From Candidatus Goldiibacteriota bacterium HGW-Goldbacteria-1 (GTDB taxonomy: Bacteria; Oederibacteriota; PGYV01), in NCBI GenBank assembly GCA_002839855.1, contig PGYV01000002.1, positions 267,125 to 331,124 on the forward strand: a stretch of DNA of 64,000 nucleotides, written 5' to 3'. This document shows, piece after piece, positions 6,101 to 60,049 of this stretch (positions are counted from its first letter, which is position 1; each line of letters begins with the position of its first letter). The position numbers were made by a program, and so were the translations under genes. Below the pieces are notes generated by a model. That model was not told the origin of the DNA, did no database searches, and was given only the letters and a program-made list of their open reading frames with translations.

Positions 6101-7531
6101 ATGAAGCAGAGGAAAATTTTGTTTCCGGTTGTGGATAATATTTTAAGCTCCGGAATCAGGCATGGGGATGATATACAAAGAATACGCCTGATCCGCCAGG
6201 TGAATGGTTTAAACCTTTTTTTTATATTTATTGCCTCAAGCGTGACGATTATATTTACAATTATCACATCTTCACCTGAACTTAAAATAATTCAGGGTTT
6301 AGCCACCATATTATACGCCGCCAGCTTGTACATAAATTCAAAAGGAAACCTTAAACTTGCTTCAAATATGACGATGTATGTATTTGAAGTGCATATTTTT
6401 GGAGTGATGCTGCTTACTAATGGATGGAACAGCGCCGCAATAACGCTGATTATACTATATCCGCTTATGGCAGCACTGCTGGAAGTGCCCATAAAACGGC
6501 ATTTATTCATAGGCCTTGGGCAGGCGGCTGTATTGTTTATAATTTATAGGTTTATCCCGGGGCTGGATGCTTATCTTGTTTATAAAAGTAATATCGGACC
6601 GGATGCGGTGTTTGTGTTAAGCCTGATGGCTGTCACTTATACACCAATCATGGCGGCTGTAATAATAACCATAATATTTAAGGAAAATATTCTGGCAAGA
6701 AAAAAACAGAAGGAAATGCTTGTGGAAATATCAGATGTTAACAGGCAGCTTGAAATTTACGCGACACAGTTAAAAGATGAAACCCAGAAACTTAAAGCGG
6801 AAGTCAGTATTGCGAAAAAGATACAGACAATGGTTCTGCCTTCGTTAGAGGAAATAAAAGAGATAAAAGAACTTGATATTGCCTGCATAATGAGGACGGC
6901 GACAGAAGTCGGCGGCGACTATTACGACATTATAAAAATTGACGGAACAATTACAATAGGTATTGGGGATGTAACCGGACACGGGCTGTCAAGCGGGCTG
7001 ATTATGCTTATGGCGCAGACCGCTGTAAGGACGCTGGCAGAAATGAAGGTGAAGGAACCCAGCCTATATCTGTCTTTGTTGAATAAAATATTATACGCCA
7101 ATATCAGCAGGATAAAAGAAGACAGAAGCATGACTATGATAATAATTACTTATGTCAATAACAGGTATTATATCTCGGGTCAGCATGAATCTGTGATTAT
7201 ATGCAGGAAAAACGGCGAAATTGAAGTCATTGACACAATGGATAATGGTTTTTATGTGGGAATGACCCTTGATGTACCGGATATATATAAAAACATGGAA
7301 CTTGTCCTTGAAAAAGACGATGTTATGTTTCTTTATTCTGACGGCGTCACAGAGGCGGAAAACATTAGAAAAGAGCAGTTTGGGATATCCAACCTGTGCG
7401 ACACATTAAAGAAGTACCATAATTTAACCGCGGAAAAAATTAAAGATAAGTTCATGAAAGATCTGTACAACTTTATGGGAGAGACAGAAATATATGACGA
7501 TATAACGCTTGTGGTAATAAAACAGAAATAA
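6101..7531 (+). CDS. membrane PP2C/SpoIIE-type serine phosphatase (SiaA/RsbU-like)
   Basis: The protein has 476 residues. About six hydrophobic segments lie between residues 28 and 205, followed by a coiled-coil-like helix at about 205-250. The SpoIIE/PP2C domain has the metal-binding GGDYYD near 271, GDVTGHG near 290, LYSDGVTEA near 412 and DDITLVVI at the end. Such phosphatases dephosphorylate STAS-type partner proteins. The next three genes encode a kinase-like ATPase, a STAS-like protein and a GGDEF protein, the order of Pseudomonas siaABCD. SiaA, however, has a periplasmic sensor plus HAMP rather than a multi-helix membrane bundle. It therefore probably senses a membrane or extracellular cue and switches its partner protein; the cue is unknown. 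Confidence 0.85.
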   Translation: MKQRKILFPVVDNILSSGIRHGDDIQRIRLIRQVNGLNLFFIFIASSVTIIFTIITSSPELKIIQGLATILYAASLYINSKGNLKLASNMTMYVFEVHIFGVMLLTNGWNSAAITLIILYPLMAALLEVPIKRHLFIGLGQAAVLFIIYRFIPGLDAYLVYKSNIGPDAVFVLSLMAVTYTPIMAAVIITIIFKENILARKKQKEMLVEISDVNRQLEIYATQLKDETQKLKAEVSIAKKIQTMVLPSLEEIKEIKELDIACIMRTATEVGGDYYDIIKIDGTITIGIGDVTGHGLSSGLIMLMAQTAVRTLAEMKVKEPSLYLSLLNKILYANISRIKEDRSMTMIIITYVNNRYYISGQHESVIICRKNGEIEVIDTMDNGFYVGMTLDVPDIYKNMELVLEKDDVMFLYSDGVTEAENIRKEQFGISNLCDTLKKYHNLTAEKIKDKFMKDLYNFMGETEIYDDITLVVIKQK

Positions 7532-7545
7532 GGGAGGTATAAAAA

Positions 7546-8097
7546 ATGAAAATTGGAGATTATCTGGAAATTCCGGAAACAAAAAAAGTAATTCTGCTAA
7601 AGCTGACGCACGCGGACCTGCTTAAGATATGGAAAAGGTGCGGGTTAACCGCCAATTACGGGGCAAGTTATCTGGCATCATCATGCCCGGAAAAGAAAGA
7701 TGTTATGAATTCGGTTTCAATGATAATTAATGAACTTCTGGAAAATGCCGCAAAGTATTCGGATGAGGAAATGGGATGTATAGAACTTACAATAACACTT
7801 TCCGGAGATTCGGCAATTTTGCAGGTGGATAACATAATTGACGAGCAGAGATATATGATTTTTAAGAAGTTTGCCGACAAAATAGCAAACTGTGATGACG
7901 TAAATTCCATGTATATGGAAAAACTGCAGTCTTTCGGTGAAGATGACAGCATGAAATCGGGAATAGGGCTGCTGACAGTATTAAGTTTTTTTAATCCAAA
8001 AATGGGTTTTATGTTTCAGCCTCTTAAGGAAGCGAATAAATACAGGGTGTCGGTTCAGGCCGCAATGCCTATAGAGGGGGCGGCATCATGCAGATAA
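7546..8097 (+). CDS. HATPase-type kinase, SiaB-like
   Basis: The 183-residue soluble protein carries the N-box of GHKL ATPases (NELLENAAKYS near 61), a degenerate ATP-lid region and a GIGLL motif near 145, but no dimerisation or phospho-acceptor His domain. This is the architecture of anti-sigma-factor-like serine kinases such as SpoIIAB, RsbW and SiaB. It follows the phosphatase by 14 bases and overlaps the next gene by 10, so translation is probably coupled. It likely phosphorylates the Ser-containing STAS-like protein encoded next, opposing the upstream phosphatase. This is inferred from order and folds. Confidence 0.75.
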   Translation: MKIGDYLEIPETKKVILLKLTHADLLKIWKRCGLTANYGASYLASSCPEKKDVMNSVSMIINELLENAAKYSDEEMGCIELTITLSGDSAILQVDNIIDEQRYMIFKKFADKIANCDDVNSMYMEKLQSFGEDDSMKSGIGLLTVLSFFNPKMGFMFQPLKEANKYRVSVQAAMPIEGAASCR

Positions 8098-8441
8098 AGG
8101 GAGAAGACTATTCAATTGTATTTGATGACAAGCTAAATACCGTTAATTTCAGCGGCTCCCTTCGCCTTGAAAACATGGGGGAATATAAGTCAATAGAGCA
8201 GTTTCTTCTTGATGTGCATGAATTGAACCTTCCGTTTTTAAACCTGGATTTTAAAGCGGTTGATTTTCTTAACAGTTCCGGGATTGCAATGCTTTGCAGA
8301 TTTATTATGGATGTAAAAAAACAGGACAAAATGCCTGTTATTGTCACGGGAAATGACGATATTTTATGGCAAAAGAAGTCATTTGCCAATTTAAAACTGC
8401 TCTGGGATAAAGTGGAAGTAAAATTCGGAAGGGCGCAGTAA
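8088..8441 (+). CDS. STAS-like / SiaC-like switch protein
   Basis: The 117-residue protein fits an anti-sigma-antagonist-like fold. The motif DFLNSSGIAML at residues 59-69 resembles the phosphorylation loop of STAS proteins (DSSG) and the corresponding Thr/Ser loop of SiaC (DUF1987), making Ser63 or Ser64 the likely phosphosite. It lies between the kinase-like gene (10-base overlap) and the GGDEF gene (17-base gap). By analogy with SiaC it would bind and activate the diguanylate cyclase when dephosphorylated. An alternative is an slr1659-type regulator acting on something else. Confidence 0.7.
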   Translation: MQIKGEDYSIVFDDKLNTVNFSGSLRLENMGEYKSIEQFLLDVHELNLPFLNLDFKAVDFLNSSGIAMLCRFIMDVKKQDKMPVIVTGNDDILWQKKSFANLKLLWDKVEVKFGRAQ

Positions 8442-8458
8442 ACAAAAGGGGTAAAATT

Positions 8459-9103
8459 GTGGGTGATGAGGAAAATATTAAAAAGCCGGATGAATTGCGC
8501 GATGAACTGGAAGAGTTAAAAAAAGAGAATGAGGACCTTAAACTGCTTTATGATACTATTGTAAAGCACGCTACGACACTTGAAAACGACCTTGAAAAAA
8601 AACTGCGTGAAATTACGGTAATGTCGGTGACCGATTCCCTTACGAATATATTTAACCGCAGGAAATTTACGGACAGCCTTCTTTTTGAAGTGAAAGGCGC
8701 TTTAAAAAACAGCACCCCTCTTGCGCTTATCATATTTGACATAGATAATTTTAAGCAGATAAATGATAAATACGGCCATGATTACGGTGATTTTGTCCTT
8801 GTGACGTCGGTAAGCATAATAAAAAAAGTGCTTTTGAAAAATTCTATTTTTGCCAGGTGGGGCGGCGATGAATTTACAATTCTGCTGCCGGGAACCAATG
8901 CCGCGCAGGCGGTAAAAATAGCGGAAGCGGCGCGGGAAGAACTTCATAATCACTATCTGAATATTCACAGGGAAGTATCGTGCAGTTTTGGCGTGACGGA
9001 ACTGCTTTCAACTGACAATATTAAAAGTTTCATAGTAAGGGCTGATAACGCGCTGTATGACGCTAAGAATAACGGCCGCAACAGCGTTAAATGTTTTTTA
9101 TAA
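8459..9103 (+). CDS. diguanylate cyclase, SiaD-like
   Basis: The 214-residue cytosolic protein has an N-terminal coiled coil (about 5-50, rich in Glu, Lys and Leu) and a GGDEF domain: DSLTNIFNRRKF near 60, FDIDNFKQIND near 95 and an intact ARWGGDEF near 130, so it should be catalytically competent. The position of the inhibitory RxxD site upstream of GGDEF reads LKNS, so classical product inhibition is probably absent. The start is GTG, the only in-frame start behind the AAAAGGGG site. It closes the sia-like cassette; c-di-GMP made here would be controlled by the preceding switch protein. Confidence 0.85.
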   Translation: MGDEENIKKPDELRDELEELKKENEDLKLLYDTIVKHATTLENDLEKKLREITVMSVTDSLTNIFNRRKFTDSLLFEVKGALKNSTPLALIIFDIDNFKQINDKYGHDYGDFVLVTSVSIIKKVLLKNSIFARWGGDEFTILLPGTNAAQAVKIAEAAREELHNHYLNIHREVSCSFGVTELLSTDNIKSFIVRADNALYDAKNNGRNSVKCFL

Positions 9104-9134
9104 CAGGATTATAATTACAAGGAAAACAGATGGC

Positions 9135-9297
9135 TTGACATATCACTAAAATGGTAGTAATCTTATATTGAAATAAAAGATGAATCAAAAGGCTTTTTGC
9201 CTGACGGTGAATCTTCGGTTATTAAATTTATTGTGCTGAGTTGAAAGGGTTAAAACCCGACTGCAAAGGCAAGATAATAGTTAATCTTATTTATATT
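9135..9297 (+). ncRNA. candidate structured leader RNA before the hydrogenase-regulator/hydG genes
   Basis: A TTGACA at 9135-9140 (with only a weak -10) precedes ~160 bases without an open frame. Local pairings are visible: AGGC/GCCT near 9190-9202, GGGT/ACCC near 9258-9269, and GATAAT at 9283-9288 with ATTATC at 9295-9300, which would compete with the terminator stem. The region resembles no riboswitch I can name with confidence. It leads into an intrinsic terminator placed directly before the next gene, the arrangement of an attenuator. Confidence 0.35.
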
Positions 9298-9330
9298 ATC
9301 CCCGCGCTTTCGGTGCGGGGATTTTTTTTT
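9298..9330 (+). terminator. intrinsic terminator inside the hydG-operon leader
   Basis: ATCCCCGCGC pairs with GGTGCGGGGAT around a short TTTCG-type loop and is followed by nine T. It ends only 20 bases before the ATG of the next gene, leaving no room for a promoter in between. It is either the end of the GGDEF transcript with regulated read-through, or a true attenuator. Confidence 0.85.
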
Positions 9331-9350
9331 AGTATAAAAAGGAGGAAGTT

Positions 9351-9620
9351 ATGGAAACCAGAATTGCTGTTGTAAGCATAATTGTTGAAGAAGCAAAGGT
9401 GTCAGAGGAACTAAATGCCATAATTCATGAATATAGAAGTTATATTATAGGCCGGATGGGTATTCCATATCAGAAACATAATCTTGCGGTTATAAGTATA
9501 GTGATGGATGCGCCAAATGACATTATAAGCGCTTTTTCCGGAAAGGTTGGAATGCTGCCTGATGTGACGGCTAAAACCGCTTATTCAAGGGTGTTAAGTG
9601 ATACAGAAGTTAAAAAATAA
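9351..9620 (+). CDS. TM1266-family iron-only hydrogenase system regulator
   Basis: The 89-residue protein looks like a ferredoxin-like/ACT-type fold with the features of the TM1266 family. It starts METRIAVVSIIVEE, the middle reads HKHNLAVISIV-like (KHNLAVISIVMD), and it ends with the GMLPDVTAKTAYS signature. Members are found beside H-cluster maturation genes and are presumed, though not firmly shown, to regulate them. It has a strong AAAAGGAGGAAG site and is followed by hydG 36 bases downstream. It shows no DNA-binding helix-turn-helix, so it may sense a ligand or bind a partner. Confidence 0.85.
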   Translation: METRIAVVSIIVEEAKVSEELNAIIHEYRSYIIGRMGIPYQKHNLAVISIVMDAPNDIISAFSGKVGMLPDVTAKTAYSRVLSDTEVKK

Positions 9621-9656
9621 AATAAACGGTTAAATGACCGCGCGGAGGTATTAATT

Positions 9657-11078
9657 ATGTATAACGTAAAATCCAAAGACGCAAACGAATTTATAGATGA
9701 TGCTGAAGTTCTTGAGTCTGTTGCGCAGGCAAAAATACTTGTTAAGGATAAGAATGCAATTGAAACGATTCTTGAAAAAGCCGAAACCTGCAAAGGGTTA
9801 ACGCACAGGGAAGCCGCCGTTTTGCTTGAAGTTGACGATGATGAAACCCTTGAAAAAATGTATAAGTCCGCGAAGAAAATAAAAGAAAAAATATACGGCA
9901 ACAGGATAGTTTTGTTTGCGCCCCTTTATCTTTCAAATTACTGCGTGAATAACTGCAAATATTGCGGCTATAAATGTACCAATAAGATAGACCGGCTTCA
10001 GCTGTCACAGCAGCAGCTGCGCGAAGAAATTATAGCGCTTGAAGGAATGGGGCATAAACGGCTGCTTTTGGAAGTGGGAGAGGATGATGAAAAATGCCCG
10101 ATAGATTATGTGCTTGAATGCATAAAGACAATTTACGCCGAAAAATTTGAAAATGGTTCTATAAGAAGGGTTAATATAGACATTGCAGCCACAACCGCGG
10201 AAAATTACAAAAAGTTAAAGGACGCGGGAATAGGCACATACCTGCTTTTTCAGGAAACGTATCATAAGCCCACTTATCTTGCTATGCATAAAGGGCCCAA
10301 ACAGAATTATGAATGGCACACGGAAGCCATGGACAGGGCAATGATAGAAGGCGGTATAGATGACGCAGGCATAGGCGTGCTTTATGGGCTTTATGACTAC
10401 CATTACGATACCGTGGCTTTAATAATGCATGCGGAGCATATGGAAGCTGCCGCGGGTGTCGGGCCTCATACAATATCTTTTCCAAGATTATTACCTGCGG
10501 AAGGAATTGATTATAAAAGTTTTCCATATCTGGTAAAGGACAGGGATTTTAAAAAATTAGTAGCTGTAACCCGCCTGGCAGTACCTTATACCGGTATGAT
10601 ACTTACCACAAGAGAAAGCGCTGAATTCCGCAAGGAACTTCTGGATGTGGGATTCTCTCAGATGAGTGCGGGTTCAATAGTCGGGGTGGGCGGATACGCA
10701 AAGCGCGTTAAGGAAGAGAGCAACAATGAAAAGCCGCAGTTTGATGTTGCTGACCACAGAAAACCTATGGATGTTATAAAGGGGCTTGTAAAAGACGGGT
10801 ATATTCCAAGCTACTGTACTGCATGCTATCGCGAGGGAAGAACCGGCGACCGTTTTATGCCGCTGGCAAAATCCGGGCAGATTGGAAACTTCTGCCATCC
10901 AAACGCGCTTTTGACATTTGAAGAATACCTTAAAGACTACGCGGATGATGAACTTAAGGAAATGGGAAGAAAAATGGTGGACAGGGAAATACAGAACGTG
11001 CCGGATAAGACAAGAAGGGAAAAAGCGCTTGCCTATCTTGAACGTATCCGCAAAGGCGAAAGGGATCTGAGATTCTAA
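9657..11078 (+). CDS. hydG: [FeFe]-hydrogenase H-cluster radical SAM maturase HydG
   Basis: HydG cleaves tyrosine with radical SAM chemistry to supply CO and cyanide ligands for the H-cluster. The 473-residue length is normal. The radical SAM cluster motif CVNNCKYC (CX3CX2C) is near residue 96. The second, HydG-specific auxiliary cluster motif CX2C-X22-C is near 387 (CTACYREG to GNFC), which separates it from ThiH. The start has GGAGG at 9644-9648. It pairs with the TM1266 regulator. The partners HydE and HydF are not in this window, while hydA lies 48 kb away, so the maturation genes are scattered. Confidence 0.96.
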   Translation: MYNVKSKDANEFIDDAEVLESVAQAKILVKDKNAIETILEKAETCKGLTHREAAVLLEVDDDETLEKMYKSAKKIKEKIYGNRIVLFAPLYLSNYCVNNCKYCGYKCTNKIDRLQLSQQQLREEIIALEGMGHKRLLLEVGEDDEKCPIDYVLECIKTIYAEKFENGSIRRVNIDIAATTAENYKKLKDAGIGTYLLFQETYHKPTYLAMHKGPKQNYEWHTEAMDRAMIEGGIDDAGIGVLYGLYDYHYDTVALIMHAEHMEAAAGVGPHTISFPRLLPAEGIDYKSFPYLVKDRDFKKLVAVTRLAVPYTGMILTTRESAEFRKELLDVGFSQMSAGSIVGVGGYAKRVKEESNNEKPQFDVADHRKPMDVIKGLVKDGYIPSYCTACYREGRTGDRFMPLAKSGQIGNFCHPNALLTFEEYLKDYADDELKEMGRKMVDREIQNVPDKTRREKALAYLERIRKGERDLRF

Positions 11079-11083
11079 AAAAC

Positions 11084-12118
11084 ATGAAGAATAATATTAA
11101 GCATACGTTATTACTTGCAGTGTTTCTGTTATTGTCAGCCGCTTATCCGGTTTATGCCTCTGATTTGTTCAGCGTGTTACCATGGAACGGATATACAGGC
11201 GCGGTTTCGCTGACTTTTGATGACGGAGACCCCATTCATTTGGACCTTGCGATACCCGAAATGCAGAAACGCGGATTAAAAGGAACGTTTTTTCTGATTG
11301 CCGGAAATACTTCAAGGCAGGAAGAGTGGAAAAAAGCAGCGCGGGACGGAATGGAAATAGGAAATCATTCAATGAACCACAGGCGGGCAGCGGAACTTTC
11401 AGCTGATGATGAAATTACGGAAGTTGACTCTGCCGGAGAAATATTGAAAGAATTATCGGGACAGCCTGTTATTACATTTGCTTATCCGTTTGTTGAAATA
11501 ACTGACGGGCTTAAGGCAAGAATAGAAAAAAACTGCATTGCCGCAAGGGGCGGATATGGGCAGTATAATTATAATTCTGAATCGCAGCCGGATTGGCTTA
11601 ATATATCCAGCCGGACAACGATGACGGATTATGATATTGAAAAATATAAAAGCTGGATTGATCAGGCAATGTATTCGGGGGCGTGGACTGTGTTTATGAT
11701 ACACGCGGTGGAAGGGTCTGACTGGTACCAGCCGGTTCCAAAAAAAACATTCCTGGGAATTCTGGATTATCTTAAAGAAAATGAAAAAGACCTTTGGATT
11801 GCCCCGTTTGGGGAAGTGGCCGCTTATTGGAAAGCTCAGAAAATTCTTGAAAACGCGAAAGTAATAAAAGTAAATAATAATTACTATTTAAAGTGGAGTA
11901 AATCTAAAATTTTTCCATGCGGAGTTATTGTTAAAGTAAAGGTTTATGGCGATAAATTTATTATTTCTCAGGATGGCAGTGAATTAAAACAGATATCACC
12001 GGGGGTCTATCCCGTAATGTTTGATAGCGGAAATCTGGAGTTTCGTAGATTAAAAATGTTGAAAAAGACAGGGCGTGTAATAGAACCTGAATCCCTTGTT
12101 TTAAACGGCAAAATATAG
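11084..12118 (+). CDS. secreted polysaccharide deacetylase (NodB/CE4 family)
   Basis: The 344-residue protein has a signal peptide (about 1-26, ending VYAS) and a NodB-type domain: SLTFDDGDP near 43 with the catalytic and metal Asp pair, GNHSMNH near 93 with the metal-binding His pair, and FAYPFVE near 128. The last ~90 residues form an extra beta-rich segment. It would remove acetyl groups from an envelope or exported polysaccharide. It starts 5 bases after the hydG stop with no clear ribosome site, so it may depend on hydG translation; the functional pairing with hydG is odd. The glucan-synthase gene follows but has its own promoter. Confidence 0.85.
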   Translation: MKNNIKHTLLLAVFLLLSAAYPVYASDLFSVLPWNGYTGAVSLTFDDGDPIHLDLAIPEMQKRGLKGTFFLIAGNTSRQEEWKKAARDGMEIGNHSMNHRRAAELSADDEITEVDSAGEILKELSGQPVITFAYPFVEITDGLKARIEKNCIAARGGYGQYNYNSESQPDWLNISSRTTMTDYDIEKYKSWIDQAMYSGAWTVFMIHAVEGSDWYQPVPKKTFLGILDYLKENEKDLWIAPFGEVAAYWKAQKILENAKVIKVNNNYYLKWSKSKIFPCGVIVKVKVYGDKFIISQDGSELKQISPGVYPVMFDSGNLEFRRLKMLKKTGRVIEPESLVLNGKI

Positions 12119-12331: not shown

Positions 12332-15300
12332 ATGCGCGGATTTTTTACGGATTTACCCCGAAAAATACAGGAAATTTTTACAATAAATCTGCCGGCAAAA
12401 AAAATAATAAATGAACAGCCTCTAAGGGCTGAACTTTTCAGTATGGATCAGTTTGAACTGCATGCCAAATTTCTGGCAGAGAAACATGATGTAAGCCTGA
12501 AAAAAACCCGGGAAAAACTCCTTATCCGCCTGAAAGATAATGAACAGATACTGCTGCGTACAAATAAAATGCTTAATGAAGCGGATAAAGCAAAAAATAC
12601 CATTACTCCTGCCGGAGAATGGATTCTGGATAATTATTACCTTATAGAAGAACAGATACGCCTTGCGCAGAAATTCTTCCCAAAAGTATACAGCCGCGAA
12701 CTTCCCGGCTTGTCTTCAGGGCCTATGTCCGGTTATCCAAGGGTTTATGATATTGCAATGGAAATAGTATCGCATGGCGACGGCCGTATTGACGTTAAGG
12801 GTTTAACCGCGTTTATTTCATCTTATCAGACAATAAAAAAATTGAAACTTGGAGAGTTATGGGCAATTCCCATTATGCTGCGGCTTGCTCTTATAGAAAA
12901 TCTAAGGCGTGTTTCTGTTTACATGATGGTTACGCAGGTGGACAGGGATAAGGCGGATTACTGGGCAAACAGAATTCTGGAAGTGGCGGTTAAAGATACT
13001 GATAATTATATTCACGAGATAGCGGCAATGGCAAAAGATAATCCCCCCATGTCGGACTCTTTTGTGTCGGAATTTGTAAGGCGGCTTCAGGGGCAGAGCG
13101 CGAACATTGATCTTCCTTTAAACTGGCTGGAAAAGAAACTGTCAGAGCAGGGCGAAACAGTGGAAAGGCTGATACGATCAACCAGCCGTAAACAGGCGGC
13201 TAATCAGGTTTCTATTGCTAATACTATAGAAAGTTTAAGGCTGCTGGAAGGCACCGACTGGCATGAATTTGTTGAAGCGCTAAGCGCTGTTGAAGAGGTT
13301 TTAAGAAAAGACCCGTATGGTGTTTACGGCACAATGTCTTTTGAAACCCGAGATGCATACCGTCATGTCATTGAAAAGTTGGCAAACAAGAGCAGGCTTA
13401 CAGAAGAAGATGTGGCTTTACGGGCTTTGCAGATTGCGTCTCTGGCGGCGGCAGATAATAAGGGTAAAGATGCATCCGCGCATATAGGGTATTATCTTAT
13501 TGACAAAGGGTTAAAACAGCTTTATAGCGAGCTGAAAATAAGGTTTCCTATAAGCGCGCTTTTACAGGCCAAAAAGACGGCATTGTCAATGTCATTATAT
13601 ACGGGGTCTATTGTATTATTTACATGTATCGGTTTAGCGGCAGGTTTGTTTTTAGCGGGCATATTAGGGCTGCGCGGCTGGCTGAATTACGCTATTCTTT
13701 CAATACCCCTTCTTTTTGTCACAAGCCAGACAGTTGTTTCCATTATTAACTGGATATCCACTATTATCGTAAAACCAAATAATCTGCCAAAAATGGATTT
13801 TTCTAAAGCAATAACAGCCGGCGCGCATACGCTTGTAGTTGTGCCCACGCTGCTTAATAACAGGCAGGGGATTGAATCGCTTATAGAAAATCTGGAAGTC
13901 AGCTACCTTGCGAATAAAGATCCGCAAATAAGTTTTGCACTTCTGACTGATTTTAAAGATGCCCTGCAGGAAAACATGCCGGAAGATGAATCGCTTCTGT
14001 CTTTTGTAATCGAAGGGGTAGAAACGTTAAACAACAAATATCCGGGCAAAGACGCTGAAATATTCTATTTTTTTCACAGGAACCGTAAATGGAATCCGCG
14101 TGAAAAGTTGTGGATGGCATATGAAAGAAAAAGGGGAAAACTTTCCGAACTTAACATGCTTCTTAGGGGCAATGGCAAAGATAAATTCAGTGTTATAAAA
14201 GGTGATGTACAGCACCTGCAGGACGTAAAATATGTAATTACGCTGGATACAGATACAAGAATGCCAAGAGATGCGGTGAAAAACCTGGTGTCTATTATCT
14301 GCCATCCGCTTAACAAACCCGTGTATGATGAAGAAAAGAAACGCGTGGTATCCGGATACGGAATTCTTCAGCCAAGGGTGGAAGCCGGCTATCCGGGGGA
14401 AAATCCATCCGCTTTTGTGAAAATTTTTGGCGGCGAAACAGGCATTGACCCGTATACAAAAGCCGTTTCAGATGTTTATCAGGACCTGTTTTTTGAAGGT
14501 TCATTTATAGGAAAAGGCCTTTATGAAGTCGATGCTTTTGAAAAATGTTTAAAAGACCGGCTGCCGGAAAATCTGATACTTAGCCATGATATGCTTGAAG
14601 GGTGTTATGCCCGCTGTGCCCTTGTGACCGAAGTTGAACTGCATGAAAAGTACCCTACGGCATATTTAAAGGATGTCAGCCGCAGGCGCCGCTGGATACG
14701 CGGCGACTGGCAGATAACACAATGGCTGTTTTCAACAGTTCCCGGTTTTAACGGTAAAAAAGTAAAAAATCCGCTGTCTTTTTTATCGCAGTGGAAAATA
14801 CTTGATAACTTAAGGCGCAGCCTTGTTCCTGTCTCTGTTTTTATAATATTTTTATCCGGATGGATAATGTTTAAATCTTCGTGGCCATGGACTATATACA
14901 TTATACTGCTTTCAGGCCTGCCTATACCGGTAAAATTGATGTATGACGCGGGAAGAAAACCGGAAGGCATAAGCATGGAATCCCATATGTCGGCATTATC
15001 TGCTTCGTTAACAAACCGAGGCCTGCAGTTTTTGCTTTCTTTTGTATTTATAGTGTATGAAGCCTATTACAATATCGCAGCCGTGGTTACCACTTTCTGG
15101 CGTAAGTTTATCACGCGCAGTAAGCTGCTGGAATGGAATACTTTCGCGGAAACGGAACTTGCGGGAAATATTACCGCGTTTGATTACGTCAGAAAAATGA
15201 TTGCGGCTCCGTTTGCGGCGTTGTTATGCGCCGCATCGGGATGCGTAAAATCGGACCTGCCTGCGGTTATGATATTGATTTCATGGATGGCTTCTCCTTT

Positions 15301-18300
15301 AGTTGCTTATATTATAAGCAGGCCGGTTTCATTACGCCGCGACGTACTGTCCGCGTCAAAGAAACTCTTTTTAAGGATGTGCGCAAGAAAAACGTGGAGA
15401 TTCTTTGAAGAATTTGTGACCGCCCGAGACAATTTTTTGCCGCCGGATAATTTCCAGGAAGAACCATTGGGCATGCCCGCGCGCAGGACTTCTCCCACAA
15501 ACATTGGGCTGTCTCTTTTGTCCAATCTCACGGCATATGATTTTGGCTACATTTCAATGGCGGTAATGCTTGACAGGACAAAGAAAACACTGGGCACCAT
15601 GAACGCGATGGAAAAATACAGGGGTCATTTTTACAATTGGTACAGCACAGAGACCTTAAAACCCCTGCTTCCGCTGTATATTTCTTCAGTTGACAGCGGC
15701 AATCTTACAGGCAATTTACTTGTTATGCGTTCGGGAATTCTGGAAATGCGCGGGGAAAAGATTATTTCTTTTAAAATAATTGACGGCCTTTTGGATACGC
15801 TTAATTTAATCGTGGAAAGTTTTAAGGAGCCGGTAAAAAACACGTCTGCCGCATCCAGGGAAACCGCTGTAAGAATAGAAGCAAGGCTTAAGCGGATGGG
15901 TGATAAACTTTTATCTGTGCCTGAAACACTTCCGGAATTGCACATGCTGATACGCCATTTGTCAGCCGAGTGTTCCAAAATGATAATTGACCTTGATTTT
16001 ATGGGGCTTGTAAAAACCAAGAAATGGGGCATGGCTTTTGAAAAACATTGTTATCACTGCCTTGAAGATATGGTATATATGGCGCCATGGCTGCAGCTTC
16101 CTACGGAAATACCGGGCATGTGGGATAAAGATGAAGAAAAGCAGAACGAAATGCGCGCTATTTTACGGGAAGAATTAAGGCATCTTGAAACGATACCTGT
16201 TCTTAACGATGCGGCAAGGCTGGAATTAAAACTTATTCCGTTAATAGATAAAATTCTTAACTCTTCTGAATACAGTAATGATGAAAAAACATGGTTTATG
16301 GCTCTTAAAGACGCGGTATCACGCGCGGGGACAAGGGCGTATGAACGGATAGCTATAATTGAAGAACTGGCGCTTTCCTGCGGTGAAATGTCAAATGTTG
16401 AATATGATTTTCTTTATAATAAGTCCAAACATTTGTTTCATATAGGATATAACGCGGGTGAAAGAAAAACTGATGCTTCGTGCTATGACCTTTTAGCGTC
16501 GGAATCTCGCCTGGCAAGTTATATTGCCATTGCTCAGGGAAGCGTTCCTCAGGAACACTGGTTTATGCTTGGAAGGCTGCTGTCAAAACGCGGCGGAGAT
16601 CCGGTTTTGGTATCGTGGGGCGGTTCTATGTTTGAATACCTGATGCCGCTTCTTATAATGCCGGATTACGAAGGTACGCTTCTTAACAGGACTTATAAAG
16701 CCATAGTGGGAAGGCAGATAGACTACGCAAGGCGCAATGAAGTGCCATGGGGCATATCAGAATCAGGATATAATAAAGTTGATGTTACCATGGCTTATCA
16801 GTACCGTTCATTTGGCGTGCCGGATTCTGGCTTTAAAAGGGGATTGGCAGAAGACCTTGTAATTGCCCCATACGCGTCTGCAATGGCTTTAATGGTGGAA
16901 CCGGAAAAAGCATGTGAAAATCTGGAACTTTTGAAAGATAACGGATTTGAAGGGGATTATGGTTTCTATGAAGCCATAGATTACACGCCGGCGCGCCTTG
17001 CCACGGATGAAAATTACTCGGTGGTAAAATCATATATGGCGCATCATCATGGTATGTCGTTTTTATCTTTCGCTTATGTCCTTTTAAACAGGCCTATGCA
17101 AAGGCGTTTTTTGGCTGATCCAATGTTTAAGGCCACAGAACTTCTGCTGCAGGAAAGGGTTCCTGTGGATGTGCCTTTTCTTTATGACACAGAAGTCACA
17201 GGGCCGCTTAGGCAGGTGGAAGAAAGGGAAGCTTTACTGCGTGTATTTACAAATCCGGATACTCCTACGCCGGAAATACACCTTTTATCAAACGGAAAAT
17301 ACAGCGTTATGGTTACAAACGCCGGCGCCGGGTACAGCAGATGGAAAAATATCGCGGTAACCAGATGGCGTGAAGACGCGGCTTTGGATAATGAAGGCAC
17401 ATTTGTGTACTTAAGGGATGTTAAGACCGGGGATTTTTGGTCTGCCGCGCACCAGCCGACACTGAAAAAATCAAAAAATTACGAAGCGGTTTTTTCGCAA
17501 TCACGCGCGGAATTTAAAAGGCGTGATTTTAATATTGACACGCATACAGAGATAGTTGTGTCGCCGGAAGATGACGTGGAATTACGCAGAATCAACATAA
17601 CCAACAGGTCGCGCGATAAACGCCGGATAGAGTTTACCAGCTACGCGGAAGCGGTGCTTAATTATCCTGAAGCGGATCAGGCACACAGCGCTTTCAGCAA
17701 TCTCTTTATACAAACGGAAGTTATTAAACCTTATCAGGCTATAATCTGCGGCAGAAGGCCGCGTTCTGAAAATGAAGCGTATCCTTTTATACTTCATCTT
17801 ATGGCTGTTCATGGCAATTCAACAACGCCCGCTTCATACGAAACTGACCGAAGTAAATTTATAGGGCGCTGCGGTACGACGGCAGACCCCGCGGCAATGC
17901 ACGATAAGGGAGTCCTATCGGGTACTCAAGGGGCGGTAATTGACCCTGTGCTAAGCATACGAGGCTGTGTGGAACTTGATTCCCAGGAATCGGCTGTGAT
18001 TGATTATGTTACGGCAGTATGCGGCAGTATGGAAGACGCAAAAAAACTGATTGAAAAATACAGGGACCGTAACCTTGCGGACAGGGTTTTTAATCTGTCC
18101 TGGACACACGGGCAGGTGGCGCTGCAGCAGATAAACGCGACAGAAGCGGAAGCGCAGCTTTATGGGCGCCTTGCCGGCGCTATTGTATATGCCAATCCGG
18201 CGTGGCGCGCGGCCGCAAGTGTACTTAAAAAGAACCTTAGGGGGCAGCCGGATTTATGGGGGTACAGTATTTCAGGCGACCTGCCTATAGTTCTGGTGCG

Positions 18301-21097
18301 CGTGGAAGACCCGGAAAATCTTGATATAATCGACCGGCTTATTCAGGCGCATTCATATTGGCGTATGAAAGGTTTAAGGGTGGATCTTATTATATGGAAC
18401 GAGGATCATTCAGTCTATAGGGATGATATGAGCGAGAAGATAAACAGCCTTATATCCAAGAACGGTCCGGGCATGTCAAACCAGCCCGGAGGAATATTTT
18501 TAAGGCGCGCCGATCAGATGTCCGAAGAGGACAAAATACTTATGCAGGCCGTGGCGCGGATAATAATTACAGACAGGGGCGGAACACTGGCTGAACAGAT
18601 AGAACGCATGTCGCACATAAGGCCGCAGCGGCCGCAGTTAAACGTAACTAAAAGGTTTGGTATTGAAAAAGAAGATGAAGGTATCAGCGAGCGTAAAGAC
18701 CTTGAATATTTTAACGGACTGGGCGGGTTTACCCGCGACGGCAGAGAGTATGTCATTAATACAGCGCCCGGCAGAAGAACGCCGGCGCCATGGGCAAATG
18801 TGCTGGCAAATAAAAACTTTGGAACGGTAATATCAGAAAGCGGAAGCGCCTATACCTGGAGCGAGAATGCACACGAGTTCCGCCTGACCCCATGGAAAAA
18901 TGACCCTGTTACCGATACCTGCGGAGAAGCAATGTACATCAGGGATGAGGAATCCGGGCGTTTTTGGTCGCCTACACCGCTTCCCGCGTCGGGAAAAACA
19001 GGATATGTATCGCGCCATGGTTTTGGTTACAGTGTTTTCGAACATAGAGAAAACGGGATAGAATCGGAACTGACTGTTTTTGTCTCTCTTGAACATCCTG
19101 TAAAGTTTTCTGTTTTAAAAATAAAAAATCATTCCGGGCGCAGGCGCAGTTTGTCAGCCACATCATACAATGAACTGGTAATGGGCACGCACAGGGATAA
19201 ATATCACATGCATATTATTACAGAGGTTGACCCTAAAAGCGGCGCTATGCTTGCGTACAACCATTACAATAAGGAATTTCCGGACAGGGTTGTATTTCTT
19301 GATACAAGCGAGACCGCCCGTTTTGTAACAGGAGACAGGCACGAGTTTTTGGGAAGAAACGGGTCTATGGGTTCGCCGGCTGCAATGTATAAAGACAGGC
19401 TGTCGGGTAAAACCGGCGCGGGATATGACCCCTGTGTAAGCGCGCAGGTTAAATTTGAATTAAATGATAATGAAGAAAAGGAAATAGTATTTCTATTTGG
19501 TTCAGGCAAAAGCCCTGACGAGGCGCGTGAAATACTTCAGAGCTATAACGGTTCAGCATTGGTGCATAAAGAACTTGAAAATGTATGGGAACACTGGAAA
19601 AGAAGCCTTGGCGTAATTTATGTTGAAACACCGGATAATTCCGTTAATTTTCTTGTGAACGGCTGGCTTCAGTATCAGGTAATAAGCTGCCGTTTGTGGG
19701 GGCGCAGCGGTTATTATCAGTCAGGCGGCGCTTATGGTTTCAGGGATCAGCTGCAGGATGTTATGGCGCTTATGCATTCTCATCCGGAAATGATAAGGGA
19801 ACAGCTGCTTACTTTTGCCTCTCATCAGTTTACAGAAGGTGATGTTCAGCACTGGTGGCATCCGCCGTCAGGAAGGGGCGTCAGAACAAAGTGTTCTGAT
19901 GACTATTTATGGCTGCCTTTGGTTGCTTCTGTATATGTTATGGAAATCGGAGATACGGGAGTATTAAATGAAAAAGTGCGTTTTCTGTATGGGCCGCAGG
20001 TAAATCCCGATGACGAGTCATATTACGGCATGCCGGGGATATCAGAAAACCGGGGAACTCTTTATGAACATTGTGTTGCGGCAGTCAGGCACGCTTTAAG
20101 ATACGGAATACACGGGCTTCCGCTTATTGGCAGCGGAGACTGGAATGATGGCATGAATCTGGTTGGTAAAGACGGAAAAGGCGAAAGTGTCTGGCTGGCA
20201 TTCTTTCTGCATAAGGTACTTATGTCTATGTCGCAAATGGCAAAGCAGCACGGGGATGAAACTTTTTCCGATGAATGCCTTGAAGAAGCCGCAAAGCTTT
20301 CTAAAAATATAGATAAAAACGCGTGGGATGGAAAGTGGTATCTGCGGGCTTATTTTGACAATGGAGAGCCGCTGGGTTCTTCGTTAAATACAGAGTGCCG
20401 TATAGATTCTATTCCGCAGTCATGGGCCGTTATTTCCGGTGCGGCAGATCCGGCAAGGGCAAAAGAAGCAATGGACAGCGTGGATAAACTGCTTGTTGAC
20501 AGGCAGGGCATGCTGATAAAACTTTTTACCCCGCCTTTTGATAAAACTTTAAATAATCCGGGGTATATAAAAGGCTATGTGCCGGGCGTAAGGGAAAATG
20601 GGGGGCAGTATACACACGCTGCTGTGTGGTCTGTAATGGCATTTGCCGCGTTAAAAGACAGATCACGGGCGTGGGAACTGTTGAATTTAATAAACCCCAT
20701 CAGGCACAGCGATACGGCAGAAAAATCCGCCTTATATAAGGTGGAACCATTTGTTATGGCCGCTGATGTGTACGGTGTTGAATCTAACACGGGCCGCGGC
20801 GGCTGGACCTGGTACACGGGTTCTGCTTCGTGGATGTATCAGCTTATTGTCAAGAATCTGCTGGGAATTCAGCTTAAAGTTGACCGGTTATATTTTGAAC
20901 CGTGCCTTCCGAAAGACTGGCAGTCATTTAAGGTTCATTACCGTTTCCGGGAAACTTTTTATCACATATCACTGCAAAGGTCGGGGGCAGAAGATAAAGT
21001 AATATCGGTAACTGTTGACGGCAACGCGCATCAGGATTTATCCATCCCGCTTGTTGATGACAGAATAGAACATACGGTGGAAGTGGTAATAGGGTGA
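12332..21097 (+). CDS. giant cyclic beta-1,2-glucan synthase-like protein (GT84/GH94 type)
   Basis: At 2921 residues this matches the size and domain order of NdvB/Cgs. It has a cytosolic N-terminus, membrane segments near 412-480, and a glycosyltransferase domain with the acidic TLDTDTRMP near 633 and RRRRWIRGDW near 785. More membrane segments lie near 830-875 and 900-1000. A glucoamylase-like domain follows at about 1050-1600, then two carbohydrate-binding/GH94 phosphorylase-like units to the end, with the GH94 catalytic Asp motif GDWNDGMN near 2601. In the family the GT polymerises UDP-glucose, while the GH94 domain controls chain length. Cyclic periplasmic beta-glucans act in osmoadaptation and host interaction. 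The AAAGGAGGAG start is clear. Whether the product is cyclic beta-1,2-glucan here is inferred. Confidence 0.88.
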   Translation: MRGFFTDLPRKIQEIFTINLPAKKIINEQPLRAELFSMDQFELHAKFLAEKHDVSLKKTREKLLIRLKDNEQILLRTNKMLNEADKAKNTITPAGEWILDNYYLIEEQIRLAQKFFPKVYSRELPGLSSGPMSGYPRVYDIAMEIVSHGDGRIDVKGLTAFISSYQTIKKLKLGELWAIPIMLRLALIENLRRVSVYMMVTQVDRDKADYWANRILEVAVKDTDNYIHEIAAMAKDNPPMSDSFVSEFVRRLQGQSANIDLPLNWLEKKLSEQGETVERLIRSTSRKQAANQVSIANTIESLRLLEGTDWHEFVEALSAVEEVLRKDPYGVYGTMSFETRDAYRHVIEKLANKSRLTEEDVALRALQIASLAAADNKGKDASAHIGYYLIDKGLKQLYSELKIRFPISALLQAKKTALSMSLYTGSIVLFTCIGLAAGLFLAGILGLRGWLNYAILSIPLLFVTSQTVVSIINWISTIIVKPNNLPKMDFSKAITAGAHTLVVVPTLLNNRQGIESLIENLEVSYLANKDPQISFALLTDFKDALQENMPEDESLLSFVIEGVETLNNKYPGKDAEIFYFFHRNRKWNPREKLWMAYERKRGKLSELNMLLRGNGKDKFSVIKGDVQHLQDVKYVITLDTDTRMPRDAVKNLVSIICHPLNKPVYDEEKKRVVSGYGILQPRVEAGYPGENPSAFVKIFGGETGIDPYTKAVSDVYQDLFFEGSFIGKGLYEVDAFEKCLKDRLPENLILSHDMLEGCYARCALVTEVELHEKYPTAYLKDVSRRRRWIRGDWQITQWLFSTVPGFNGKKVKNPLSFLSQWKILDNLRRSLVPVSVFIIFLSGWIMFKSSWPWTIYIILLSGLPIPVKLMYDAGRKPEGISMESHMSALSASLTNRGLQFLLSFVFIVYEAYYNIAAVVTTFWRKFITRSKLLEWNTFAETELAGNITAFDYVRKMIAAPFAALLCAASGCVKSDLPAVMILISWMASPLVAYIISRPVSLRRDVLSASKKLFLRMCARKTWRFFEEFVTARDNFLPPDNFQEEPLGMPARRTSPTNIGLSLLSNLTAYDFGYISMAVMLDRTKKTLGTMNAMEKYRGHFYNWYSTETLKPLLPLYISSVDSGNLTGNLLVMRSGILEMRGEKIISFKIIDGLLDTLNLIVESFKEPVKNTSAASRETAVRIEARLKRMGDKLLSVPETLPELHMLIRHLSAECSKMIIDLDFMGLVKTKKWGMAFEKHCYHCLEDMVYMAPWLQLPTEIPGMWDKDEEKQNEMRAILREELRHLETIPVLNDAARLELKLIPLIDKILNSSEYSNDEKTWFMALKDAVSRAGTRAYERIAIIEELALSCGEMSNVEYDFLYNKSKHLFHIGYNAGERKTDASCYDLLASESRLASYIAIAQGSVPQEHWFMLGRLLSKRGGDPVLVSWGGSMFEYLMPLLIMPDYEGTLLNRTYKAIVGRQIDYARRNEVPWGISESGYNKVDVTMAYQYRSFGVPDSGFKRGLAEDLVIAPYASAMALMVEPEKACENLELLKDNGFEGDYGFYEAIDYTPARLATDENYSVVKSYMAHHHGMSFLSFAYVLLNRPMQRRFLADPMFKATELLLQERVPVDVPFLYDTEVTGPLRQVEEREALLRVFTNPDTPTPEIHLLSNGKYSVMVTNAGAGYSRWKNIAVTRWREDAALDNEGTFVYLRDVKTGDFWSAAHQPTLKKSKNYEAVFSQSRAEFKRRDFNIDTHTEIVVSPEDDVELRRINITNRSRDKRRIEFTSYAEAVLNYPEADQAHSAFSNLFIQTEVIKPYQAIICGRRPRSENEAYPFILHLMAVHGNSTTPASYETDRSKFIGRCGTTADPAAMHDKGVLSGTQGAVIDPVLSIRGCVELDSQESAVIDYVTAVCGSMEDAKKLIEKYRDRNLADRVFNLSWTHGQVALQQINATEAEAQLYGRLAGAIVYANPAWRAAASVLKKNLRGQPDLWGYSISGDLPIVLVRVEDPENLDIIDRLIQAHSYWRMKGLRVDLIIWNEDHSVYRDDMSEKINSLISKNGPGMSNQPGGIFLRRADQMSEEDKILMQAVARIIITDRGGTLAEQIERMSHIRPQRPQLNVTKRFGIEKEDEGISERKDLEYFNGLGGFTRDGREYVINTAPGRRTPAPWANVLANKNFGTVISESGSAYTWSENAHEFRLTPWKNDPVTDTCGEAMYIRDEESGRFWSPTPLPASGKTGYVSRHGFGYSVFEHRENGIESELTVFVSLEHPVKFSVLKIKNHSGRRRSLSATSYNELVMGTHRDKYHMHIITEVDPKSGAMLAYNHYNKEFPDRVVFLDTSETARFVTGDRHEFLGRNGSMGSPAAMYKDRLSGKTGAGYDPCVSAQVKFELNDNEEKEIVFLFGSGKSPDEAREILQSYNGSALVHKELENVWEHWKRSLGVIYVETPDNSVNFLVNGWLQYQVISCRLWGRSGYYQSGGAYGFRDQLQDVMALMHSHPEMIREQLLTFASHQFTEGDVQHWWHPPSGRGVRTKCSDDYLWLPLVASVYVMEIGDTGVLNEKVRFLYGPQVNPDDESYYGMPGISENRGTLYEHCVAAVRHALRYGIHGLPLIGSGDWNDGMNLVGKDGKGESVWLAFFLHKVLMSMSQMAKQHGDETFSDECLEEAAKLSKNIDKNAWDGKWYLRAYFDNGEPLGSSLNTECRIDSIPQSWAVISGAADPARAKEAMDSVDKLLVDRQGMLIKLFTPPFDKTLNNPGYIKGYVPGVRENGGQYTHAAVWSVMAFAALKDRSRAWELLNLINPIRHSDTAEKSALYKVEPFVMAADVYGVESNTGRGGWTWYTGSASWMYQLIVKNLLGIQLKVDRLYFEPCLPKDWQSFKVHYRFRETFYHISLQRSGAEDKVISVTVDGNAHQDLSIPLVDDRIEHTVEVVIG

Positions 21098-58270: not shown

Positions 58271-60049
58271 ATGGAAAACAACAAAGTATCAATTAAAGTA
58301 AACGGCAAAGATTATACTGTGGAAAAGGGGCTTACAATTGTTAAAGCCTGTAAGAAAATAGGAATTGATATTCCCACATTATGCTATCTTGAAGATGTTT
58401 CAAAGAACGCGTCATGCGGAATCTGCGTGGTAGAAATTAAGGGCGCCAAATCCCTTATCAGGTCATGCATTACCGAAGTGACACAGGGCATGGAAATTCT
58501 GACATCAAGCCCCAAGGTAATGGAAGCGCGCAGGACAAATCTGGAACTTATTCTTGCTAACCATCCGGATGACTGTTTAAACTGCGCAAGGAATGGGAAT
58601 TGTGAACTTCAGGCTATGTCATACACGCTTGGAATAGACGGCACAAGCAGGTTTGTTAAAACAAAAAATGACGAACCTTTTGACGAGACTTCTCCGTCAT
58701 TAATCAGGGATCCCAATAAATGCATCCTTTGCGGAAGGTGTGTGACAGTATGCGCGGATATGCAGACTGTTTATGCTATTGATTTTTCAAAGAGGGGCTT
58801 AAAAACAAAAGTTTCAACGTATATGGAAAAAGGCCTTGGAAATATAGCATGCACAAACTGCGGCCAGTGCGCCATTGTATGCCCAACCGGCGCCATTGTT
58901 GAAAAAGACGATACGCGCGCGGTATGGAAAGAACTGCAGGATCCGGAAAAAGTTGTTCTGGTACAGACGGCTCCCGCTATCAGGGTTGGTATCGGCGAGG
59001 CAATGGGAATGGGCGAAGGCGCCCTTGTAACGGGACAGATGGTATCCGCATTGCGCAGGCTGGGTTTCAGCAAGGTATTTGACACGGATTTTGCGGCCGA
59101 TTTAACCATCCTTGAAGAAGGCCACGAGCTTATTAAAAGGCTTACAAAAGGCGGCACACTTCCTATGATGACATCATGCTCGCCGGGATGGATAAAATTC
59201 TTTGAACATTTTTATCCGGAGCAGCTTGCGCACTTGTCAACATGCAAATCGCCGCAGCAGATGTTTGGCGCGCTTGCGAAAAGTTTTTACGCGCAGAAGA
59301 TGGGGATTGACCCAAGAAAAGTTGTGGTTGTATCAATAATGCCGTGCACGGCCAAGAAGTATGAAGCCAAAAGGGAAGAAATGGCAGGCGCGCTTAATTT
59401 CTGGAAGGATAAAATGGAACTTTCAAAAGATGATAAATTTTATGATATCGATTATGTCCTTACCACAAGGGAGCTTGCAAGAATGTTTAAGCAGGCAGGG
59501 GTGCATTTTTCCACGCTTCCCGAAGAGGAATTTGATTCGCCCCTTGGCGCTTCAACAGGTGCCGCGGTTATATTCGGCGCGACAGGCGGCGTAATGGAAG
59601 CGGCAGTAAGGACCGCGTATGAAGTTGTGGTGGGTAAACCGCTGCCAAGCCTTGATCTTAAAGTTGTCAGGGGTTTTGAAGGTATAAAGGAAGCGGAACT
59701 TGATTTAAACGGAACAAAGATTAAAGTGGCTGTGGCGCATACGCTTGGAAATGCCAGAAAACTTCTTGACCAGATAAAGGACGGCAAATCGCCTTACGCG
59801 TTTATTGAAGTTATGACATGCCCCGGCGGATGCTTGGGCGGCGGCGGACAGCCGATACCAACCACCTGGGAGATAAGGCAGAAAAGGGCGGATTCAATTT
59901 ATGCCGAAGACAGGAAAAAGGGTTTAAGAAAATCACATGATAACCCCGAAGTAAAAGCGCTGTATGACGAGTTCCTAAAAGAACCGCTTGGGCACCTGTC
60001 GCATGAACTGCTTCACACCCATTACGTAAAAAGGGGAATATTTGTTTAA
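58271..60049 (+). CDS. hydA: [FeFe]-hydrogenase catalytic subunit, NADH-dehydrogenase-associated type
   Basis: The 592-residue enzyme reversibly makes H2. The [2Fe-2S] ferredoxin domain has Cys ligands near 38-66 (LCYLED to ASCGICVVE). The His-ligated cluster region is HPDDCLNCARNGNCELQ near 97. Two [4Fe-4S] clusters have CILCGRCVTVC near 152 and CTNCGQCAIVCPTG near 196. The H-cluster motifs are L1 TSCSPGW near 300, L2 MPCTAKKYEA near 357 and L3 EVMTCPGGCLGGGGQP near 513. It is the multimeric, bifurcating-type architecture without a C-terminal [2Fe-2S]. L1 has Ser at the position of the proton-relay Cys of clostridial CpI. The ATG at 58271 behind AAGGAGG was chosen over 58244. The gene ends in a strong terminator. 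Confidence 0.95.
   Translation: MENNKVSIKVNGKDYTVEKGLTIVKACKKIGIDIPTLCYLEDVSKNASCGICVVEIKGAKSLIRSCITEVTQGMEILTSSPKVMEARRTNLELILANHPDDCLNCARNGNCELQAMSYTLGIDGTSRFVKTKNDEPFDETSPSLIRDPNKCILCGRCVTVCADMQTVYAIDFSKRGLKTKVSTYMEKGLGNIACTNCGQCAIVCPTGAIVEKDDTRAVWKELQDPEKVVLVQTAPAIRVGIGEAMGMGEGALVTGQMVSALRRLGFSKVFDTDFAADLTILEEGHELIKRLTKGGTLPMMTSCSPGWIKFFEHFYPEQLAHLSTCKSPQQMFGALAKSFYAQKMGIDPRKVVVVSIMPCTAKKYEAKREEMAGALNFWKDKMELSKDDKFYDIDYVLTTRELARMFKQAGVHFSTLPEEEFDSPLGASTGAAVIFGATGGVMEAAVRTAYEVVVGKPLPSLDLKVVRGFEGIKEAELDLNGTKIKVAVAHTLGNARKLLDQIKDGKSPYAFIEVMTCPGGCLGGGGQPIPTTWEIRQKRADSIYAEDRKKGLRKSHDNPEVKALYDEFLKEPLGHLSHELLHTHYVKRGIFV

Follow-up and report, generated by a model that had tools for sequence, protein, structure and literature searches.

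A conserved leader with a terminator and competing pairings as a putative attenuator of the TM1266-hydG operon

In the stretch of DNA analysed here (the window; 64,000 nucleotides of contig PGYV01000002.1, Candidatus Goldiibacteriota bacterium HGW-Goldbacteria-1), the region 9135-9350 is, in our judgement, quite likely to be a cis-acting transcription attenuator of an operon composed of a TM1266-family gene and hydG, which would switch between terminated and read-through states according to the scheme set out below. The attenuator probably serves HydG specifically, as a leader that is riboswitch-like or senses a protein. Conservation, position, the terminator and the potential for mutually exclusive pairings are read directly from the DNA. 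A preliminary description of this region had proposed control by read-through of the terminator, and the proposal gains support from the retention of leader and terminator together with both genes at all five loci found.

Layout of the leader

The gene directly upstream, which encodes a GGDEF protein, ends at 9103 on the + strand. A gap of 247 bases separates it from the start of a putative hydrogenase-system regulator of the TM1266 family (9351-9620, + strand; TIGR03959, 111.3 bits; PF21699, 106.1 bits), and this is followed by hydG (9657-11078, + strand; TIGR03955, 686.7 bits), encoding the radical SAM maturase of [FeFe] hydrogenase. The leader occupies ~160 nt of this gap, from a promoter-like site to a strong terminator.

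The terminator (9298-9330, + strand) has the G+C-rich hairpin and T run of an intrinsic terminator. The stem at 9298-9322 reads ATCCCCGCGC-TTTCG-GTGCGGGGAT, with 11 pairs, 7 of them G-C, and is followed by nine T (9322-9330). It was the sole + strand terminator in 7000-12000 in a terminator scan. Because the loose scan was overall at chance level (5 found versus 3.9 +/- 1.8 expected), the case for this terminator is built on the strength of its hairpin and on its presence in 5/5 leaders. It ends 20 nt before the ATG of the TM1266-like gene, and the intervening bases, 9331-9350, have room only for a ribosome-binding site (AGGAGG, 9340-9345, + strand, read from the sequence). The preliminary description was thus correct in placing a strong terminator up to 9330, with a ribosome site and the ATG at 9351 behind it, and in judging the gap too short for a promoter. 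A TAGTAT-like stretch at 9330-9335 was considered as a promoter and rejected, as it is not accompanied by a -35 hexamer and is lost in the relatives.

The promoter-like site (9135-9163, + strand) lies ~190 bases upstream of the TM1266-like gene and consists of TTGACA at 9135-9140, a 17-nt spacer and TAATCT at 9158-9163. TTGACA and the spacing are kept in all five leaders, with -10 hexamers TAATCT in the window and TATTTT, TATTCT, TATTAT and TATTAT in the others. The window hexamer matches just 3 of 6 bases, which is why the site is missing from the list produced by the promoter scan. The predicted layout is that of an attenuator, with a promoter-like site upstream, a terminator before the gene and no promoter between them. 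The promoter spacer (9141-9160) carries a conserved, partly palindromic ACTAAAATGGTAGT-like stretch, which is possibly a repressor site. A stretch of this kind precedes a dehydrogenase-like gene in genome G013 (L087, ~1501-1516), and there is another in G012 (L091, ~1501-1516). As a regulon-wide operator the spacer motif CTAAAWNGGTAGTATT was rejected, since it had 31 matches in five genomes at up to 2 mismatches, versus 138 for the reversed control.

Conservation and distribution

Searching 59 genomes with the TM1266-like regulator protein gave matches in eight. Five of these (G000, the genome of the window, and G001, G002, G012 and G013) were either the window's own copy or 70-80% identical to that copy, and three were 29-31% identical. 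A DNA search with the leader gave clear matches in G001, G002 and G012 (E 4e-14 or better); the leader of G013 was found by its position upstream of TM1266 rather than by a clear DNA match. The five full leaders can be aligned end to end, and in every one the promoter-like site, core and terminator stand directly before TM1266, with hydG next after it (cut by the contig end in G013). They span three genera of one order, G000, G001 and G002 being of one genus and G012 and G013 of another family.

The conserved, aptamer-like core (9175-9280, + strand) is 67-78% identical between pairs of the five leaders, and the promoter stretch is 69-90% identical. The corresponding figures are 46-52% for the 200 bases before the promoter (73% for G000 and G001, which have a common upstream gene) and 31-53% for the third codon positions of TM1266. 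By this sequence comparison the leader is under purifying selection.

A model built from the five leaders (R1) matched a single site in each of five genomes, scoring 104-112 bits; these matches are its own input sequences. The genomes searched were 14 from the order, 45 from the phylum and 384 overall, with five positive each time; the three sets overlap, and stricter filters were applied above 40 genomes. Among the genomes searched, the leader has so far been seen in a single order, which belongs to an uncultured phylum. A pattern scan of genome contigs for wider homologues returned five stretches, three of which could be equated, on R1 score, with the loci of G002, G012 and G013. Two pattern matches were rejected as chance: L054 lies inside a dapA-like coding frame and scores 18.6 bits, and L058 lies inside a 453-aa frame where R1 lists no match. 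No leader homologue was found in the viral contigs searched.

The genes upstream of the leader are of four kinds: GGDEF (G000 and G001), P-type ATPase (G002), rhodanese-like (G012) and outer-membrane-like (G013), the last three named by eye. Because the upstream genes differ, the leader belongs with TM1266-hydG. This bears on the possibility that the terminator merely ends the upstream operon, and that hydG owes its expression to a hidden promoter or to leakage without regulation. Such an arrangement would suit an upstream gene that lies on the same strand and ends at 9103 and a GGDEF operon common to G000 and G001, but the terminator and the preceding 150 nt persist although the gene upstream changes, and between that gene and the terminator stands a conserved promoter-like site. 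We therefore regard it as highly unlikely.

Helices and switching strands

The leader of the window folds better than its shuffled versions (z -2.82; 1 of 200 shuffles as good). Its 5' hairpin, P1 (9179-9213, + strand), is composed of GAU/AUC, a tandem G-A step, RYC/GGY and AGG/CCU. The P1 pairs are kept in all sequences that have letters there, and one of them occurs as A-U, G-U and G-C. P1 holds a 2x2 G-A step but lacks the three-base bulge that belongs to the definition of a kink turn.

The same segment holds the start of a candidate leader peptide, whose translation could control attenuation, for example by sensing tyrosine, the substrate of HydG. By eye, an ATG at 9180 of the window opens a leucine-rich frame of 19 codons, but the frame has zero tyrosine codons, G002 has no ATG at that place, and the frames of G001 and G013 end after 6 and 10 codons. 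The loops also differ in length by numbers that are not multiples of three. The five leaders do not share a conserved short frame with regulatory codons, so a leader-peptide attenuator was rejected as most improbable.

Downstream of P1, strand A (UGYGCURA, 9232-9239, + strand) can pair either with strand B, through GCU:GGC, or as a whole with arm D. It is followed by hairpin P3 (GGG/CCC, 9247-9258, + strand), which is invariant in 5/5. The switching strand B (CCCGACUGCAAAGGCAAGAUAAUAG, 9256-9280, + strand) can pair with strand C (UAUUAUCCCCGCGC, 9294-9307, + strand), which comprises the terminator 5' arm and the flank upstream of it, and with the terminator loop. Arm D (9310-9317, + strand) is the 3' arm, inside the terminator.

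In the attenuation scheme that we favour, transcription would start just downstream of the conserved promoter-like site, and the leader made would be structured. With the switch OFF, strand A would pair with strand B next to hairpins P1 and P3, C:D would form as the terminator hairpin, and transcription would stop at 9330. With the switch ON, strand C would be captured by strand B ahead of the synthesis of D, and A could pair with D around B:C; with no terminator, polymerase would read into TM1266-hydG. A bound factor would set the balance between terminator and antiterminator. We infer that the pairings form and which way the switch works, and also that a signal exists and what it might be.

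An antiterminator that would exclude the terminator is pairable in all five leaders. The A:D pairing is the longest conserved helix of the leader, at 8 bp with 39/40 cells paired across the five leaders; among 300 column shuffles, 5 gave a helix as long. Its duplex energy was matched by 4, 2, 5, 0 and 1 of 500 shuffles in the five genomes; for B:C the numbers were 12, 13, 6, 47 and 21. The A:B pairing amounts to three invariant pairs (GCU:GGC). When the RNA was folded up to the terminator GGGG, the GAUAA:UUAUC antiterminator appeared in G000, G001, G002 and G013, and G012 folded otherwise. In G013 both partners have changed: the terminator 5' arm is CCUUCAC, strand B is GUGAAGG, and the two pair perfectly; the GAUAA:UUAUC pairing of this leader lies clear of the terminator hairpin proper.

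The preliminary description had pointed to an alternative fold in which GATAAT would pair with ATTATC at the base of the terminator. That pairing is borne out at the level of sequence, with GATAAT at 9273-9278 (within strand B) rather than at 9283-9288 as given there, and its partner at 9295-9300. It is the inner part of a larger predicted antiterminator, which would sequester the 5' arm of the terminator; another strand further upstream can pair with the 3' arm. Covariance modelling in relatives had also been suggested, and a lack of conserved structure there was named as grounds for refutation. Conserved sequence and pairable helices are indeed present, but the five sequences show no excess of covariation, letter shuffles scoring as high in 188/500 and 169/500.

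Comparing own with swapped strands gave no difference for B:C (-14.9 versus -14.7 kcal/mol) and a slight advantage for A:D (-9.5 versus -8.7 kcal/mol). In forced full-length folds the terminator was better by 13.0 (G000), 4.6 (G002) and 4.7 (G012) kcal/mol, and the antiterminator by 1.2 (G001) and 2.4 (G013) kcal/mol. Judged from these foldings, alternative folding is well supported as a possibility, short of proof.

hydG outside the hydrogenase cluster

The usual cluster, hydA-hydG-aspA-hydF-hydE, was read in two genomes that do not have the leader, G007 and G010 (L113, L115). The same maturation genes are present in the leader genomes. However, in the three of these that were read (G000, G002 and G013; L111, L114, L112), the cluster is hydA-aspA-hydF-hydE; hydG alone is missing from it and stands by itself with TM1266 behind the leader. 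The families tested in this comparison were five G000 proteins, the aspA product of G013, and those of aspA and hydG in G007; the remaining cluster genes were assigned from other profile searches, position and alike N-termini. G000 has a further unnamed frame of 158 residues between hydA and aspA. In G001, hydA and hydF are on one contig and hydG on another, and G012 is too fragmented for the cluster to be read. From the cluster comparison, therefore, the leader marks an arrangement in which hydG lies outside the hydrogenase cluster. The HydG proteins of the five leader genomes are 73-92% identical to one another (that of G013 being partial, 202 aa, at a contig end) and 40-50% identical to those of seven other genomes of the order; G003 and G009 were excluded, their matches falling below the HydG cut-off.

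HydG makes the CO and cyanide of [FeFe] hydrogenase, both of them toxic, from tyrosine, so its separate control would be physiologically sensible. Derivation of the ligands from tyrosine is given in the title of PMC3105041. A new riboswitch class that senses a molecule linked to H-cluster assembly, such as a substrate or product of HydG, and switches HydG alone, apart from hydA, hydF and hydE, is a tentative suggestion that we hold to be doubtful as it stands. [FeFe] hydrogenase maturation has been well studied chemically, and a dedicated hydG leader would be a direct means of studying how cells monitor the state of H-cluster assembly. The leader would also be a new candidate aptamer, with tyrosine, SAM, iron species and intermediates of the pathway as ligands to try.

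Elsewhere in the window, near its end, a [FeFe] hydrogenase catalytic domain (PF02906) is encoded at 58949-59845; the genome has three further matches to this family.

Known RNA families and the nature of the signal

At the gathering threshold, Rfam 15 gave two tRNAs only in the whole window, and permissive scans of the leader in the five genomes gave nothing over the gathering score. The earlier impression that the region matches no recognised riboswitch thus agrees with the Rfam result at threshold. Sub-threshold matches on the window leader fell nearly all on the terminator, with one weak match upstream (STnc560, 9162-9228). In the part of the literature searched that was available to us, no mention was found of a hydG leader RNA or of RNA-level control of [FeFe] hydrogenase maturation. 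The RNA family is new as far as the Rfam and literature searches go; its kind, an attenuator and possibly a riboswitch, is known.

Several of the sub-threshold matches are small RNAs, and the promoter-like site, structured RNA and terminator would make a complete unit. It could be proposed, then, that 9170-9330 is a stand-alone small RNA acting elsewhere, with TM1266-hydG transcribed by leakage only. However, those matches align mainly to the terminator, the RNA is found directly before TM1266 in 5/5, and the bases between terminator and ATG hold a ribosome-binding site only, so that the genes need read-through anyway. We consider a stand-alone RNA distinctly unlikely.

A cis-acting attenuator has closer counterparts. 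The transcription-terminating SAM-I and TPP riboswitches share with the hydG leader, in its predicted form, a promoter of their own, a structured conserved leader, mutually exclusive antiterminator and terminator, and a ribosome site and gene right after; what sets the leader apart is that none of the Rfam riboswitches matches it at threshold and that it is seen in one order only. Conservation of the 5' part well exceeds the needs of a terminator, which makes an aptamer for a small molecule our first guess. As a first guess, too, a small molecule is the most likely factor to be sensed and a protein, TM1266 included, less likely. By analogy with attenuators of the common sort, binding of the factor would favour termination.

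The PyrR leader, a protein-controlled attenuator, resembles the hydG leader in having an alternative terminator and the regulator as first gene, but its model scores only 19.7 bits on the hydG leader, against a cut-off of 54. A protein-binding leader would be a sub-case of attenuation, and its probability overlaps that of our best explanation: TM1266 or another regulator would shift the balance of terminator and antiterminator, as in autoregulation. The regulator is the first downstream gene in 5/5, and the TM1266 family, with one solved relative (2nzc), is named as a putative regulator. On the other hand, relatives of TM1266 in G004, G008 and G011 are flanked by hydA and hydG, the three genes together, where there is no R1 leader, and our search turned up no sign of RNA binding by TM1266. 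On this evidence, control of the leader by a protein seems rather unlikely.

Two further features of the window flank the leader and its operon. Upstream, 6101-9103 is an operon encoding a SpoIIE-type phosphatase, slr1658-family and slr1659-family regulators and the GGDEF protein, in what we take to be the gene order of the Pseudomonas SiaABCD module; its last genes adjoin the leader in G001 too. Downstream, not far past the hydG operon, 12332-21097 on the + strand is an open frame of 2921 residues.
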